A stretch of DNA of 41,052 nucleotides. Origin: Acidobacteriota bacterium (GTDB lineage Bacteria > Acidobacteriota > Thermoanaerobaculia > UBA5066). How positions within the stretch are numbered: the first letter of the stretch is position 1; the number at the start of each line of letters is the position of its first letter. The DNA is taken from positions 69,620-110,671 of the forward strand of contig PLZI01000132.1 of assembly GCA_003152095.1 (NCBI GenBank), in the 5' to 3' direction. The translations under genes and the position numbers were made by a program. The notes beneath the pieces were generated by a model. That model worked only from the letters and a program-made list of their open reading frames with translations, was not told the origin of the DNA and searched no databases. This document shows positions 23,344 to 30,680 of this stretch, in pieces.

Positions 23344-26300
23344 GTGACGCGGCGGAGGGATCCGCTCTTGAAGACGCTTGCCGCCGCGCCCGCGGTGCAG
23401 CGTCTGGCCGGGCGCATCGAGGCGGGGGTCCTCGGGACGTCGACGGGATGCGTGTCTCTGACAGGGGCGCCCCTGGGCCTGCTGCCGTATCTCCTCGAGG
23501 CGGTCGGCGTGCCGCTCGGGCTGAAATGGCTCGTCGTGTTCGCGCACGAGCGCGATGCCTCGGCCTTCGCGCGCGACGCCGCGAGTGTTCTCGGCGACGA
23601 GCGTGTGGCGTTTTTTCCCGCGCCGGCGCTGTCGCCTTACCAGCAGATCGCGCCTTCGCTGAAGGTCAGGCGGGAGGAGTTCGGGACGCTGACGCGCCTC
23701 GCGGAAGGGTCCGTGGAGCTTCTCGTCATCCCGGCGCGCGCGCTGCTTCGGCGCCTGCCGCCGCCGGACGACTTCCGGAAGCGAACGCGCATGCTCGCCA
23801 CGGGCGACGAGGTAGCGCCCGGGCGCATCACCGAGACGCTCCTCGACGAGGGGTATGCGCGCGCGGATCTCGTGACCGAGACCGGCGACCTCGCCGTGCG
23901 CGGCGGTCTCGTCGACGTTTTCCCGCCGCATCTCTCGGAGCCCGTGCGCATCGAGTTCGACCTGAACGCGATCGCGTCGATCCGCTCCTTCGACCCGGAC
24001 ACGCAGCGCTCGACAGGTGCGCTCTCGATGGTGTCGCTCCCGCCCATGGCGCTCGCACCCGACACGCGCGCCACGCGCGAGACAGCGCTGCGCGTGCTCG
24101 CGGACTGCCGCACGGCGGACGACGACCCGCCGGTGCCGCGCGACCTCTCGCTCGCGCGCCGCAACGACGGCCTCGATGAGCTGCTGCCTCTTCTCGCCGG
24201 AGAAGAAGCCCATGTCTTCGACCACGCAAGGAATTTCATCCTCGCCGTCGACGACGCCGACGCCATCGCCGCGGAGCTCGTCCGTGCGGCGGATGTCCTC
24301 AACCTCGACTACGAGAAGGCCCGAAAGGCCGGGCGCGTCGTGCCGGATCCGACGCGCCTCGCGGGCGACGCGGATCGCCTTACGGAGGATCTCCAGGCCC
24401 GCGCCCTCGTGGCCCTCGCCGCGGCCGTGCCGGTCGGCGAGACGATCGCGATCGGAGCGGAGTCGGTCCTCTCGTACGAGGACCGGCTGCCGGACGTGAC
24501 GAAAGAGATCTCTCGCGCGCGGAAGGACGGTCTCGCCGTCTTGCTCGCCGCGGCGACGAAGGGCGAGCGCGAGCACGTGGAGCGCCTCCTCGCCGAATAC
24601 GAGATCGAGCATCAGGGGAAGGCCGAGGACGTGGTCTCGCCGCTCGCGCCGGGCGCGTGTCGCGTCGTCTCGGGCGGCCCGCGCTCGGGTTTCCTGTTCC
24701 GTCCGGCGGGCGTCCTCCTGCTCACGGCGACGGACCTCTTCGGAGAGCCGCGCTCGCAGGCGCCGCGGCGGAAGTCCGCGTCGGAGGCGTTCCTGTCGGA
24801 CCTGCGCGACCTGAAGGTGGGCGACGTCGTCGTGCACCGCGACTACGGCCTCGGAAGGTTCGCGGGGCTCGCGCGCATCGAGGACGCGGGGCTGACGCGT
24901 GAGATGGTGGACCTGCGCTACGCTCTCGACGCGAAGCTGCTCGTGCCTGTCGAGCGGTTGGACCTCATTCAGAAATACGCGTCCGCGGGAGATGGGGCGT
25001 TGCCCGCGCTCGACAAACTCGGCGGCCTCGGCTGGGAGAAGCGAAAGTCATCCGTCAGGAAGGCCGTCAAGGACATCGCCGATCAGCTTCTGAAGCTCTA
25101 CGCGCGGCGCGCGGCCGCGCCCGGACACGCGTTCTCGAAGGACTCGCCGTGGCAGAAGGAGTTCGAGGAGGCGTTCGAATACACGGAGACGCCCGACCAG
25201 GCGGGGGCGATCCGCGACGTGAAGCGGGACATGGAATCGGACAAGCCGATGGACCGGCTGCTGTGCGGCGACGTGGGATACGGGAAGACCGAGGTCGCGA
25301 TGCGGGCGCTGTTCAAGTGTGTGCTCGACGGAAAGCAGGCCGCGCTCCTCGCGCCGACGACGATCCTGGCGGACCAGCACTTCCGCACGTTGAAGCGGCG
25401 GTTCGCCGCCTTCCCCGTCTCGATCGACATCCTGTCGCGCTTCCGCGGGAAGGACGACCAGAAGGAGCTGCTCAGGCGATTGGCAGAAGGGACGCTCGAC
25501 GTCGCCGTGGGGACGCACCGCCTTCTGAGCAAGGACGTCGTGTTCAAGGATCTCGGCCTCCTCGTCGTGGACGAGGAGCAGCGCTTCGGCGTGGCGCAAA
25601 AAGAGCGCATCAAGGAGTGGCGCGCCTCGGTGGACGCCCTCGCGATGTCCGCGACGCCGATTCCGCGCTCGCTGCATCTGTCGCTCGCGGGCATCCGGGA
25701 TCTCTCCGTGATCGAGACGCCGCCGAAAGACCGCCTCGCGATCGCGACGCACGTCGTACCCATGGACGATGCCGTCATCCGCGACGCGATCCGCGCCGAG
25801 GTGGACCGCGGCGGGCAGGTGTACGTCGTCCACAACCGGATCGAGTCGCTGGGATTCTGGCGCGAGAAGCTCGCGGAGCTCGTGCCGGACGTCCGGGTGG
25901 TCACGGCCCACGGGCAGATGTCGGAGGGTGAGCTCGAGCGCGCCATGCGCGCGTTCGTGACGCGTGCGGCCGATCTTCTCCTCGCGACGACGATCGTCGA
26001 GAATGGCCTCGACATCCCCTCTGCGAACACGATGCTCATCGACCGAGCCGAGATGTACGGGCTTTCGCAGCTCTATCAGCTGCGCGGGCGCGTGGGCCGC
26101 AGCGACAAGGCCGCGTCGTGCTGGCTGCTCGTGCCGCCCGGGATGCCGCTTTCGGACGACGCGCGCCGGCGCCTGCGCGCGATTCAGGAGTTCTCGGACC
26201 TCGGCGCGGGGTTCCGCATCGCGGCGAAGGACCTCGAGATTCGCGGCGCGGGTAACCTCCTCGGCGGCGAGCAGTCGGGACACATCGAGTCCGTGGGCTT

Positions 26301-26859
26301 CGAGACGTATGTGAATCTCCTCGAGGAGGCGATGGCCGAGATGAAGGGCGAGCCGGTGCCCGAGACGCGCGACGTGACGCTTCAGCTCGGCCTGCCGCTC
26401 GCGCTGCCGGCGGCGTGGATTCCGGAGGAAAGCCTGCGCATGGCGCTGTACAAGAAGATCGCGGCCGCATCCGACGAGGAGACGCTGCAGCTCGAGGCGG
26501 CGAATGCGTCCGACCGTTATGGATCCCCGCCGCCCGCGTTCGAGCGGCTTCTCGACCTCGCGCGCCTCCGGCTCCTCGCGCGGTCGCTCGGCGTCAAGGC
26601 GATCCAGCGCCGGGGCGACGAGCTCGCCGCGTCGCTCGAGAAGGACCACCGCCTCGATCCGGATAAAGTCGTCGCGATGTTGCGGAAAGGGGAGCTCCTC
26701 GCCTCTGGCCCCGATGCATTTCGTCTTCCGAATGTATTCGGCGGAATCCCGGCGGACGGCGCTGGGGTCTCGAGCCGCGCGGCGCGAGCCCTCCTCGATC
26801 TCGCCCGGGTGAACGCGCGCGCGGTGCTGCCGGTCTCACTCCTCGAGGGGGCCAATTGA
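23344..26859 (+). CDS. mfd: Transcription-repair coupling factor Mfd
   Basis: This 1171-residue ATP-dependent translocase releases stalled RNA polymerase and recruits UvrA for nucleotide-excision repair. Domain order is normal: N-terminal UvrB-like homology region (about 1-330); RNA-polymerase-interacting domain (about 475-540, beginning DLKVGDVVVHRDYGLGRFAGL); helicase domain with Walker A GDVGYGKT at 642-649 and Walker B DEEQRFGV near 743-750; ATATPIPRSLHLS-type motif III region; second RecA domain with TTIVENGLDIPSANT and QLRGRVGRS; and the TRCF C-terminal domain (about 1000-1110). The start is GTG 23344, apparently leaderless; a TTG at 23368 is an alternative. It is translationally coupled to the PPIase gene (TTGA overlap). 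Confidence 0.97.
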   Translation: MTRRRDPLLKTLAAAPAVQRLAGRIEAGVLGTSTGCVSLTGAPLGLLPYLLEAVGVPLGLKWLVVFAHERDASAFARDAASVLGDERVAFFPAPALSPYQQIAPSLKVRREEFGTLTRLAEGSVELLVIPARALLRRLPPPDDFRKRTRMLATGDEVAPGRITETLLDEGYARADLVTETGDLAVRGGLVDVFPPHLSEPVRIEFDLNAIASIRSFDPDTQRSTGALSMVSLPPMALAPDTRATRETALRVLADCRTADDDPPVPRDLSLARRNDGLDELLPLLAGEEAHVFDHARNFILAVDDADAIAAELVRAADVLNLDYEKARKAGRVVPDPTRLAGDADRLTEDLQARALVALAAAVPVGETIAIGAESVLSYEDRLPDVTKEISRARKDGLAVLLAAATKGEREHVERLLAEYEIEHQGKAEDVVSPLAPGACRVVSGGPRSGFLFRPAGVLLLTATDLFGEPRSQAPRRKSASEAFLSDLRDLKVGDVVVHRDYGLGRFAGLARIEDAGLTREMVDLRYALDAKLLVPVERLDLIQKYASAGDGALPALDKLGGLGWEKRKSSVRKAVKDIADQLLKLYARRAAAPGHAFSKDSPWQKEFEEAFEYTETPDQAGAIRDVKRDMESDKPMDRLLCGDVGYGKTEVAMRALFKCVLDGKQAALLAPTTILADQHFRTLKRRFAAFPVSIDILSRFRGKDDQKELLRRLAEGTLDVAVGTHRLLSKDVVFKDLGLLVVDEEQRFGVAQKERIKEWRASVDALAMSATPIPRSLHLSLAGIRDLSVIETPPKDRLAIATHVVPMDDAVIRDAIRAEVDRGGQVYVVHNRIESLGFWREKLAELVPDVRVVTAHGQMSEGELERAMRAFVTRAADLLLATTIVENGLDIPSANTMLIDRAEMYGLSQLYQLRGRVGRSDKAASCWLLVPPGMPLSDDARRRLRAIQEFSDLGAGFRIAAKDLEIRGAGNLLGGEQSGHIESVGFETYVNLLEEAMAEMKGEPVPETRDVTLQLGLPLALPAAWIPEESLRMALYKKIAAASDEETLQLEAANASDRYGSPPPAFERLLDLARLRLLARSLGVKAIQRRGDELAASLEKDHRLDPDKVVAMLRKGELLASGPDAFRLPNVFGGIPADGAGVSSRAARALLDLARVNARAVLPVSLLEGAN

Positions 26860-27722
26860 GGCGCGCCGCGACTCTGCTCGTCCTCGCCGCTTTCGCGGCG
26901 GTACTTGCCACAGAGGCCTGCGCGAAGAAAAGCGGCCCGCGCGCCGCGGCGCGGCTGGAAACCGTCGCGATGGCGGGTAACAGGCCCGTCACGCTGGACG
27001 AATTCATGGCCTGGGCGAAAAAGGCGACGAGCGAGGACCCGAAGAACGTCTCGCCGCGCGTCCTGTCGAGCCTTCTCGACCAGTACCTCGACGAAGTGCT
27101 GCTCGCGCGCGCCGTGGAAGCCGCCGAGCCGCCGGCTCCGGGGGCGACTCCCGCGGAGCGTCGCCGCGCCTTCCTCACGCGCGCGGCCGGGCTCGAGACG
27201 CTTCAGGCCTCGGACTTCAGATTGGAATACGACGCGCACCCCGAACGCTTCAAGAGGCCGGCTCTCGTGCGGGTGTCGCAGCTTCTCTTTCGCGCGAAGG
27301 GTGATGCCGACGCCGCGGTGAGGCGTCTCGCACAAGGCGTGCCGTGGGCGGACGTGTCGCGTGAGTCCAGCATCGCGGCGAATGCCTCGTCCGGCGGCTC
27401 GCTGGGCCTGCTCGCGCGCACGGACCTGCCGCGTGAGTTCGAGAAGGTCGTGTGGAGCCTTCCCGCGGGCAAGACGAGCGCGGTGCTCGCGACGCCCCAC
27501 GGCTTTCACGTGCTCCGCGTGGACGAACGGCTGGACGGGCGCGACGTGACGTTCGAAGAGGCGCTGCCGGCGCTCCGTATGGCCGTGGCCGAGGATCGCA
27601 GCGGGAAGGCCCTCGAGAACGCGATTGCCGGGGCCCGCTTGCGCTTTCCCGTGACCGTAGTCGAAGACCACCTCCCGTTCCCGTACGTCGGAACGAACGC
27701 GCGCGACGCCGAACCGCAGTAA
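26856..27722 (+). CDS. Exported parvulin-type peptidyl-prolyl isomerase (PpiC/SurA family)
   Basis: This 288-residue protein starts at TTG 26856, overlapping the mfd stop (TTGA), with a GAGGGGG site ahead. Residues 1-22 form a signal peptide that ends TEAC, a poor but possible lipobox. An N-terminal helical chaperone region (about 38-130: PVTLDEFMAWAKK, then VLSSLLDQYLDEVLLARAV) precedes a parvulin domain (about 145-235: VRVSQLLFRAKGDADAAVRRL, GGSLGLLARTDLPREFEKVVWSLPAG, TPHGFHVLRVDE). It would help fold exported proteins in the periplasm. Together with the next gene it forms the mfd-ppiase-surA arrangement seen in several Gram-negative lineages. Confidence 0.9.
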   Translation: MRRAATLLVLAAFAAVLATEACAKKSGPRAAARLETVAMAGNRPVTLDEFMAWAKKATSEDPKNVSPRVLSSLLDQYLDEVLLARAVEAAEPPAPGATPAERRRAFLTRAAGLETLQASDFRLEYDAHPERFKRPALVRVSQLLFRAKGDADAAVRRLAQGVPWADVSRESSIAANASSGGSLGLLARTDLPREFEKVVWSLPAGKTSAVLATPHGFHVLRVDERLDGRDVTFEEALPALRMAVAEDRSGKALENAIAGARLRFPVTVVEDHLPFPYVGTNARDAEPQ

Positions 27723-27761: not shown

Positions 27762-29405
27762 GTGAAGTCATTCCGGCGTCCCCGTGTCCTCTTTTCCGTC
27801 GTGTCCGCCGCTCTCGCGCTCGCCTCCGCGCCACTTCGGGCCGGCGAGGTCGTCAACCGCATCCTCGTGCACGTGAACTCGCGCATCATCACGCAGAGCC
27901 AGTTCGACGCGCGCATCGACCAAAACGTGCATGAGGCCGGCCCCCCGCCCACCGCTGCCAAGGGCGAGGAGATGAAAAAGAGTGTCATGGAAGAGCTCGT
28001 GAACGAGGCGCTCCTCGAGGACCGCGCCAAGGAGCTCGACCTCGTCACGTCCGACGCCGAGATCGAGGACCAGATCAAGCGGCTCAAGGACCAGAACAAC
28101 GTCACGACGGACGAGGACTTCAGCAAGGCCCTCGCGCAGTCGGGGCTCACGATCGAGCGGCTGCGCGACCAGCTCCGCCGCACCGTGACGCTGCAGCGCG
28201 TCGTGGGGCGCGAGGTGAACAGCAAAGTGGACCTATCGGACGACGCCCTGCGCGTCATCTACGAACGCGAGAAGGAATCGTGGCGCGTGCCGGAGAAGGC
28301 GCATCTCGCCGAGATCCTCGTTTCGAACGGCGACGATCCCGCCCGGGCGGCGCGCCGGGCGAAGGAGGCGTCGGACCTCATCAAGGGCGGCGCGAAGTTC
28401 GAGGCCGTCGTGAGGGACTACTCGGATGGGGCCACGAAGAGCCGCGGCGGCGATCTCGGAATCGTCACGAGGGGCGAGCTGACGTCCGAGATCGACAAAG
28501 CCGTGTTTTCGCTACCCGTCGGCACGGTGTCGGATCCGATCGGGACGAAGTTCGGCTGGCACCTCGTGAAGGTGATCGAGAAGATCCCGGTTTCGTACAA
28601 GCCGTTCGCCGACGTGAAGGCCCAGCTGCTCAAGCGCGAGCAGGACACGCAGTTCCAGAAGAAGCTCGCCGAGTATCTCGACAAGCTGAAACGCGAGGCC
28701 GTCATCCGCGTCTCGCCGGACGGCAAGGTCTACTACACGCCACCCGTGGCTCCCGCGGCCTCGATGGAGGTCATGGCCGTCCCTGGCGGCGATGGGAGCG
28801 GCGCTTCCCGGGCGGCCTCCCCGCCCGAGCGCCGCTTCGAGCTCGCGCCGACCGTCGGTTGGCGGGTCGGCGGCACGACGTCGAGCGTCGCGAACACCTA
28901 CGTCGAGAGCGTGAAGGTCCCGGACTCGCTCAGCTTCGGCATGACCGCGGAGTACGCGGTGCGGCCGTGGGGCTCGCTCGAGATCCTCTGGAGCCATCAG
29001 GACTCGGAGCTGAAGGCGAGCCTCAAGGCGGCCAGTGCCGGGGCCGACGACAAGCTCTCTCACCTGAACATCGATACGCTCCAGATTGGCGGGCTCTTGC
29101 AGTCGGGTGACACCTCGAGCAAGACGCGCCTTTTCTTCGACCTCCTCTTCGGCGTCACAGTCCTGACGCCCGCGCCCGAGCTCACGGCGCTGAAGCGCTT
29201 CTCGGCGAGTCTCGGAGCCGGCATCAAGTTCTACGTCAACGACTCCCTCGGGGCGCGCGTCGGACTGCGCTGGATGCCCGTGTACCTCCACTCCAGCAAC
29301 AGCGGATTCGACACGTGCGGCACGCTCTACGGCTGCACCACGTACTACGGCACGAACTATCTCTTGCAGGGAGACGCGTCCGCCGCGCTGCTCATGAGGT
29401 TCTGA
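27762..29405 (+). CDS. SurA-like chaperone/PPIase fused to a C-terminal outer-membrane beta-barrel-like domain
   Basis: This 547-residue protein starts at GTG 27762. Residues 1-27 are a signal peptide (ending PLRAG). Residues 30-165 are a SurA N-terminal helical domain (VNRILVHVNSRIITQSQFDARI). Residues 175-275 are a parvulin domain (KAHLAEILVS, SRGGDLGIVTRGEL, GTKFGWHLVKV). Residues 276-325 are a closing helix, where SurA normally ends. After a Pro/Ala-rich linker (326-355), residues 356-547 carry amphipathic beta strands (FELAPTVGWRVGG, SFGMTAEYAV, SLEILWSHQDS, TRLFFDLLFGVTVL, SASLGAGIKFYV, GARVGLRWMPVYL) and end in LLMRF, the terminal-Phe signature of outer-membrane proteins. The fusion is one uninterrupted frame. 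The usual SurA role is delivering outer-membrane proteins to BAM. Confidence 0.85.
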   Translation: MKSFRRPRVLFSVVSAALALASAPLRAGEVVNRILVHVNSRIITQSQFDARIDQNVHEAGPPPTAAKGEEMKKSVMEELVNEALLEDRAKELDLVTSDAEIEDQIKRLKDQNNVTTDEDFSKALAQSGLTIERLRDQLRRTVTLQRVVGREVNSKVDLSDDALRVIYEREKESWRVPEKAHLAEILVSNGDDPARAARRAKEASDLIKGGAKFEAVVRDYSDGATKSRGGDLGIVTRGELTSEIDKAVFSLPVGTVSDPIGTKFGWHLVKVIEKIPVSYKPFADVKAQLLKREQDTQFQKKLAEYLDKLKREAVIRVSPDGKVYYTPPVAPAASMEVMAVPGGDGSGASRAASPPERRFELAPTVGWRVGGTTSSVANTYVESVKVPDSLSFGMTAEYAVRPWGSLEILWSHQDSELKASLKAASAGADDKLSHLNIDTLQIGGLLQSGDTSSKTRLFFDLLFGVTVLTPAPELTALKRFSASLGAGIKFYVNDSLGARVGLRWMPVYLHSSNSGFDTCGTLYGCTTYYGTNYLLQGDASAALLMRF

Positions 29406-29440: not shown

Positions 29441-30586
29441 TCAGCTCGCGAGGAGCTCGGCACGCCAGCGCGAGAGCCCGCCTTCGGTGACGAGGAGATC
29501 GGCTGTCAGGCGTCCCTTCTCGCGGCGCGTCTTCGCCGCCGCCGTAAGGATCGCTTTCGAGGCGAGGACGCGAGGGTCGAGGCCGAGCGACGCAGCCTTC
29601 GCGTCGCGAGACTTCTTGAGGTTCTCGACCTCGCGGTCGAGCGCGGGATCGGCTCCCACCCGCTCGCCGCGGCGGGGTTTCGGCCATTCGGCCGGCGCGA
29701 GGGCTGCAGCGCGCGCGAGCGCCTCGCGCAAGGCGTGCGCGAAGGCATCCGGCAACGCGCGCGGACCTGGAAAGAGCTTCCCAAGATCTCTTTCACCGGC
29801 GGCGGCTGGCTTGGCGGCGAGGAGCAGGCGCTCGTTCGTGAGAACGCGGAACGCAGGACGGTCGAGAGACCGGGCGCGGGCGTCGCGCGCTTCCCAGAGG
29901 GCACGCGCGAACGCGCGCTCCTTGTCCGTGAAAGCGTTCGTCCCTTTGATCCGCCAGTCGTTCTCGGAGTCGGCCTCGCGCGTGGCGGGAAAGCTCGTCG
30001 CGGCCAGCCGTGCGCACTCCTCGGCGTGCCACGCGAGGCGGCCTTTCGTCTCGAGGTCGCGCGTGAGCGACTCCACGAGCGCGGCGAGGTGGAGGACGTC
30101 CGCCGCCGCGTAGGCGACCATCGGCGGCGTGAGCGGCCGCTCGCTCCAATCGGCGCGCTGGTGCGCCTTGTCGAGCGTCACGCCGGCGCGGGCGGAGAGG
30201 AGCGCGGCGAGTCCGATCTCCTTCTCGCCGAGAAGCTGCGCCGCGAGCATGGAGTCGAAGAGGGACGTCGCGCGGAAGCCGTACCCGCGAAGGAGGAGGC
30301 GGAGGTCGTAGTCGGCGCCGTGCATGAGGAGCCGCCGCGGAGCAAGGCGCGCGAGGAGAGCGGCGATGTCGAGGGGTTGGAGAGGGTCCACGAGATAGGC
30401 CGTGCCGTCCCAGGCGAGCTGCAGAAGGCAGACCTTCTCGAAGTAGTGGTGGAAGGAGTCCGCCTCCGTGTCGAGCGCGATGTCGGCTCCGGGCCGCGCG
30501 TCGAGCGCGGCGAGAAGGGCGCCGAAGGAGTCCGGGTCGAGCACGAGGCGCGCGTTGGCCGGCGAGAGGGTTGGGACGGTCACCAC
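29441..30586 (-). CDS. rnd: Ribonuclease D
   Basis: This protein has about 381 residues. The 3'-5' exonuclease domain (about 15-185) has the DEDDy motifs: Exo I DTEADSF, Exo II near HGADYDLRLL and Exo III YAAADVLHL with the catalytic Tyr and Asp. An HRDC domain follows (about 205-285), with a second helical region at the end. RNase D trims the 3' ends of tRNA and other small RNAs. The start is uncertain: tandem GTG codons at 30586 and 30583 follow a TACCCT box by 5-8 nt without a ribosome site, and a TTG at 30622 is also in frame. It is transcribed away from the dcw cluster, sharing an intergenic region with mraZ. Confidence 0.93.
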   Translation of the reverse strand: MVTVPTLSPANARLVLDPDSFGALLAALDARPGADIALDTEADSFHHYFEKVCLLQLAWDGTAYLVDPLQPLDIAALLARLAPRRLLMHGADYDLRLLLRGYGFRATSLFDSMLAAQLLGEKEIGLAALLSARAGVTLDKAHQRADWSERPLTPPMVAYAAADVLHLAALVESLTRDLETKGRLAWHAEECARLAATSFPATREADSENDWRIKGTNAFTDKERAFARALWEARDARARSLDRPAFRVLTNERLLLAAKPAAAGERDLGKLFPGPRALPDAFAHALREALARAAALAPAEWPKPRRGERVGADPALDREVENLKKSRDAKAASLGLDPRVLASKAILTAAAKTRREKGRLTADLLVTEGGLSRWRAELLAS

Positions 30587-30680
30587 CGGGGAGGGTACAC
30601 CGCCGCGCCGGTACACCCGCAACGTGCTTCGGCGCAGGGATTTCGCTTGACGCCGCCCCGATTCGAGCCGGATACTCGCG

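Follow-up and report, generated by a model that had tools for sequence, protein, structure and literature searches.

A SurA-type chaperone joined to a predicted outer-membrane beta-barrel in a family of Acidobacteriota

The surA-barrel gene and its neighbours

The window, a stretch of 41,052 nucleotides from an Acidobacteriota bacterium, carries at 27762-29405 on the forward strand a single uninterrupted frame of 547 codons with a GTG start. Its 547-residue product begins with a Sec signal peptide, continues with a SurA-like chaperone that has a single parvulin domain and ends, after a Pro/Ala-rich linker of about 40 residues, in a predicted barrel domain of about 190 residues. The features of the gene and its surroundings are the following.

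23344-26859, forward strand: mfd, the upstream neighbour, kept in relatives
26856-27722, forward strand: PpiC-type lipoprotein gene (PF13145, 64.4 bits; lipobox ..ATEAC)
27762-27842, forward strand: Sec-type signal peptide, residues 1-27, sequence MKSFRRPRVLFSVVSAALALASAPLRAG followed by EVV; GTG start; no lipobox
27852-28202, forward strand: SurA N-terminal chaperone domain, residues 31-147 (PF09312, 44.8 bits; PF13624, SurA_N_3, 61 bits)
28236-28619, forward strand: single parvulin (PpiC) domain, residues 159-286 (PF00639, 73.5 bits; PF13145, 65.7 bits)
28605-28718, forward strand: C-terminal SurA helix, residues 282-319 (helix 282-312 in the AlphaFold2 model)
28719-28832, forward strand: disordered Pro/Ala/Gly-rich linker, residues about 320-357 (pLDDT below 50 at 329-356)
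28833-29402, forward strand: predicted eight-stranded outer-membrane beta-barrel, residues 358-547 (AlphaFold2, Foldseek)
29316-29336, forward strand: C-x5-C (C519, C525) in the strand 7-8 loop, predicted extracellular; both Cys invariant in eight barrels
29379-29402, forward strand: C-terminal beta-signal-like strand SAALLMRF, compared below with the other four fusions
29441-30622, reverse strand: rnd-like (ribonuclease D) gene, convergent, downstream of surA-barrel

The N-terminal domain scores above the Pfam cut-off for SurA_N (PF09312, 30.8 bits) in the window protein and in the four other fusions found in relatives (37-45 bits); the cut-off for Rotamase (PF00639) is 21.7 bits. Homologues have an equivalent N-terminus and are also GTG-started. 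The SurA part matches E. coli SurA (9hg5/1m5y) with an E value of 5e-22 in phmmer, and in both proteins the SurA N-domain, parvulin and C-terminal helix follow in the same order on a Sec-exported chain. E. coli SurA, however, has two parvulins and no barrel and is soluble, whereas the window protein has one parvulin only and a predicted C-terminal barrel; the equivalog model of the E. coli protein (NF008038) gives 68 bits against a cut-off of 394, and Pfam has no strong match in the window protein after residue 286 or so. A further difference lies within the parvulin domain, where Glu184 (28311-28313) aligns with the His before 'ILV' of E. coli SurA. This Glu is kept in all 12 aligned homologues, fused or unfused, and its presence in place of the parvulin His suggests that the prolyl isomerase activity of this SurA may be altered, weak or absent, a matter separate from the fusion.

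The earlier note had read one frame running from the SurA-like part through a Pro/Ala linker into about 190 further residues, and this reading stands; its domain limits have shifted, with the SurA part ending at about residue 318 and the barrel covering about 358-547. GC3 is alike in the SurA part (0.90), the barrel part (0.92) and mfd (0.89), so the barrel tail is not a compositional intruder.

There is a four-base overlap between the PpiC lipoprotein gene and the mfd stop codon, and the order mfd, PpiC lipoprotein, surA (with a barrel or without) is the same throughout the family. No PpiC lipoprotein gene was found at the corresponding place in the order-mates G016-G018. Two consecutive parvulin proteins, one apparently lipid-anchored and one predicted to be barrel-anchored, are an unusual arrangement. 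The downstream gene, which we take to be rnd from a reading of its protein, follows surA or surA-barrel in G002, G003, G004, G005, G007 and G009, and in most family members rnd, mraZ and rsmH lie downstream of surA. Besides the fused protein, only two parvulin proteins were found in the window genome, one PpiD-like and the other the PpiC lipoprotein, which leaves the fusion as its sole SurA. The genome also encodes BamA-type POTRA proteins, one of which has a Skp gene nearby.

Predicted fold and constraint of the C-terminal domain

AlphaFold2 run on the tail alone (eight sequences) predicts an eight-stranded OmpA/OmpW-like barrel with a pLDDT of 80.2 and a pTM of 0.75, in agreement with the barrel-like tail proposed in the earlier note. 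In a Foldseek comparison with the PDB, the best matches of this model include the OmpA transmembrane domain (E 3e-8), OmpW (TM 0.68-0.69), NspA and OmpX. The likeness to OmpA/OmpW-type barrels (PF13505, OMP_b-brl) is one of predicted fold; the window barrel differs from them in scoring below the Pfam cut-off (18.5 against 28.7 bits, E = 0.0025) and in having a chaperone in front instead of its own signal peptide. A close stand-alone relative of the barrel in G007 clears the same cut-off with 33.5 bits, and the only NCBIfam match to the window barrel, OMP_myx_plus, is sub-threshold. The full-length AlphaFold2 model (five fused sequences) is moderate (pLDDT 67.6, pTM 0.36), so the placement of the SurA part relative to the barrel is not fixed by it. 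This model recovers the SurA helices and the parvulin fold, disorder at 329-356 and strands at 359-374, 384-401, 404-415, 435-448, 455-469, 478-491, 496-511 and 530-546, and its top structural match is the SurA of BAM-SurA complexes. Sequence, predicted structure and the four fused homologues agree in showing an outer-membrane barrel attached to a SurA-like chaperone.

The beta-signal of outer-membrane proteins follows the pattern polar-x-G-x-x-aromatic-x-aromatic. The C-terminal strands of the other fusions are SLGLTFRF, YTGLTYRF, HTGMTFRF and YTGLSFRF. All five fusions end in RF, and four of the five have Gly at -6 and an aromatic residue at -3; the strand of the window copy departs from this, having lost the Gly and one aromatic of the pattern. 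C519 and C525 are invariant in the eight barrels compared, fused and stand-alone. Small outer-membrane proteins with two invariant Cys in a strand 7-8 loop like CDPWYGCYTYY (seen also in L023, L030 and L031) form a family of their own, with stand-alone members in the window organism's family and more distant ones across the class.

Pairwise identity among the four fusions other than that of the window is 60-69% in the barrel, about 55-72% in the SurA part and 25-35% in the linker. The barrel is as conserved as SurA in these genera, which argues for purifying selection there. Across all five fusions the linker is 17-35% identical and 41-51 residues long, a variable sequence of nearly constant length, as expected of a spacer. 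The best conserved part is the C-terminal SurA helix (282-319), with 69-92% identity between fusions, and codon-position counts show a constraint on the barrel weaker than that on SurA and stronger than that on the linker. At positions where the other four fusions agree, the window copy differs at 21 of 90 barrel positions (23%) against 8 of 129 SurA positions (6%; p = 4e-4), and none of the other four fusions shows a comparable barrel excess. These changes, the loss within the beta-signal and the absence of the barrel in three congeners suggest that the constraint on the barrel is relaxing in the window genus; judged by these substitutions, the window gene may be on its way to losing the function of the barrel or the barrel itself. 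Since the window barrel may be decaying, the other genera offer better experimental material.

Distribution among relatives and history of the fusion

The earlier note had called for a search for the same two-domain protein in relatives, and it was found at full length in G004, G008, G009 and G013, which are other genera of the window's family, at 56-59% identity over the alignment. The records behind these four fusions are the separate Acidobacteriota MAGs CAIMWE, JAKOVQ, RHKY01 and CALMDF. The three congeners have a SurA that is 86-88% identical to the window protein over residues 1-345 and ends after 343-358 codons in a short Lys-rich tail, the barrel being absent there. Unfused surA genes also occur in G005, G007 and G010-G012, and G006 gave no match. 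G004 carries (L085, 7507-10085) a surA-barrel gene and directly after it a second surA without barrel; recombination between such tandem copies is a possible route of barrel loss.

The possibility had been raised that relatives would have a stop near residue 325 and the barrel as a separate gene. Such stops do exist, the SurA of the three congeners and of some other genera ending at 322-360 residues. Separate barrel genes do not adjoin these short surA genes, and other genera keep the fusion. Merging of a separate downstream gene in the window species only was rejected as an origin of the barrel, as the congeners have after surA either rnd (two of the three, immediately downstream) or an unrelated exported-protein gene, followed by the contig end (G001).

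Neither the 149 genomes of the class nor the 396 genomes sampled from the phylum yielded a fusion outside the window's family. Coverage beyond the phylum consisted only of a contig scan with barrel patterns, which gave seven loci; these lie in five MAGs, each of which matches a genome of the window's family. Separate homologues of the barrel do exist as stand-alone small outer-membrane proteins in the family and the class: relatives of the barrel are present in 90 of the 149 class genomes at E<=1e-12, and in the class and phylum genomes surveyed related barrels are separate small proteins of this kind. A literature search, with partial coverage of subscription papers, found no natural SurA-barrel fusion, in line with the earlier note, whose author knew of no described protein of this architecture. 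The SurA-barrel architecture is genuine and inherited, and within the reach of these searches it is undescribed.

At least five changes are needed for the fused state on the flanking-gene tree, the backbone of which is poorly resolved, and the outgroup families are without the fusion. All fused barrels fall into a single clade (94/96 support), which sits in a family-specific group with stand-alone barrels, some of these with signal peptides of their own. Because the nearest species are barrel-less and one genome has fused and unfused copies in tandem, the simplest reading is one early gain in the family, by joining of surA to a duplicate of a small outer-membrane protein gene, and then several losses. 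Regain of the barrel by recombination is possible. The suggestion that the fusion is recent does not hold, since it is common to five genera. Recent acquisition from a close donor was rejected, since identity between the window barrel and the other fused ones reaches only 51-57% and leaves no known donor of that kind; recombination at the 3' end is a possible source of the window barrel.

Probable anchoring of SurA in the outer membrane and its alternatives

The chaperone-barrel protein is a variant of SurA, not a new system. Among the readings of its function, tethering is plausible and the best supported, and it is fairly probable that the C-terminal eight-stranded barrel serves as a permanent outer-membrane anchor for the SurA-type periplasmic chaperone to which it is fused. 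The signal peptide would lead the chain through Sec, and the barrel with its C-terminal beta-signal would be folded into the outer membrane by BAM. An even-stranded barrel such as this one has both its ends on the periplasmic side; to judge from the predicted structure, the SurA domain would therefore be suspended under the membrane on a flexible leash of 41-51 residues. There it would receive unfolded outer-membrane proteins and hand them to BAM, and it may dock on a BamA POTRA domain like E. coli SurA; linkers of the natural length may allow it to reach POTRA-1 after insertion of the barrel. The tether would raise the local concentration of the chaperone and prevent its shuttling from the inner membrane, a task that would fall to Skp, to PpiD or to the PpiC lipoprotein encoded next door. 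The full-length fusion of five genera, at the same place relative to mfd and the PpiC lipoprotein gene, supports a tether. Several close relatives keep SurA without a barrel, which makes tethering dispensable, and the linker could be cut after export.

BamA, TamA and LptD have an N-terminal periplasmic module and an anchoring barrel last. The fusion shares this order and differs from them in that their periplasmic modules are unrelated to SurA and their far larger barrels do the actual work of an insertase or transporter. The fusion is best explained as nature's equivalent of the SurA-OmpX construct that was engineered for cryo-EM of BAM. In the engineered SurA-OmpX and SurA-EspP chains (8qpv, 8qp5; PMC11366764) the SurA C-terminus is likewise joined to the barrel N-terminus, and one of the two barrels is eight-stranded. 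These chains are man-made and cysteine-trapped, and SurA-OmpX has no added linker, whereas the fusion of the window's family is natural, has a linker of 41-51 residues and carries a barrel of a different outer-membrane protein family. Engineered SurA-OmpX docks and is trapped on BAM with SurA still engaged, and its insertion is, according to the authors, incomplete without an added linker; SurA-EspP with a 76-residue linker (76 extra residues) reaches late stages (PMC11366764). The natural linkers fit this requirement in kind, and in the fusion evolution has supplied ready-made the SurA-barrel chain that structural studies could obtain only by engineering, with the kind of linker judged necessary.

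Among the alternatives, the SurA part may mainly escort the attached barrel, the barrel being the functional product. The wide occurrence of stand-alone barrels in the class indicates that the barrel has a value of its own, and the C-terminal strand and the two loop cysteines are kept in the fusions as in the stand-alone proteins. However, the fused protein, as the only SurA of the window genome and encoded at the ordinary surA locus, must serve other outer-membrane proteins too; relatives keep SurA without barrel at this locus and never the barrel without SurA, and barrels as small as eight strands can usually do without a chaperone of their own. This reading is unlikely. Quite unlikely is a polyprotein whose linker is cut after export into soluble SurA and a small outer-membrane protein in equal amounts: a long, disordered linker of low conservation would suit it, and SurA alone suffices in sister species, but the linker, at 17-35% identity, reveals no conserved cleavage motif and its length is held within narrow bounds. 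That the barrel is a near-neutral leftover of an ancient accidental fusion, of little use and tolerated as SurA still works, is very unlikely; its repeated absence, in all three congeners among others, and its faster change in the window lineage would fit, but in the other four genera barrel identity is similar to that of SurA and conserved sites change no faster. The auto-folding porin offered in the earlier note is a weaker rival, as an eight-stranded barrel is usually without a large pore and in several relatives the barrel is gone although SurA is retained. An assembly or sequencing artefact is a negligible prospect: the named records of relatives are MAGs and the closest relatives are without the fusion, but five separate genomes have it with the same upstream neighbours, and the four independent homologues, so distant from the window copy, exclude chance, frameshift, read-through and local mutation or sequencing error.

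Docking of E. coli SurA on BamA POTRA-1 occurs through its N-terminus, and a 2026 review has posed it as an open question whether SurA shuttles or is a receiver resident at BAM (PMC13067283). The chances are about even that several acidobacterial genera have as their sole SurA a protein leashed by its barrel next to BAM, with no shuttling, in which case diffusion of SurA across the periplasm would not be needed for outer-membrane biogenesis. Overall, the barrel probably anchors a normally free-floating SurA in the membrane it serves, although some relatives have lost it. If this is true, the shuttle question could be approached through a natural experiment, in which species that have their only SurA attached to the outer membrane stand next to sister species whose SurA is free, and the patchy loss of the barrel, together with one genome that has both forms in tandem, would allow a direct comparison of tethered and free SurA.
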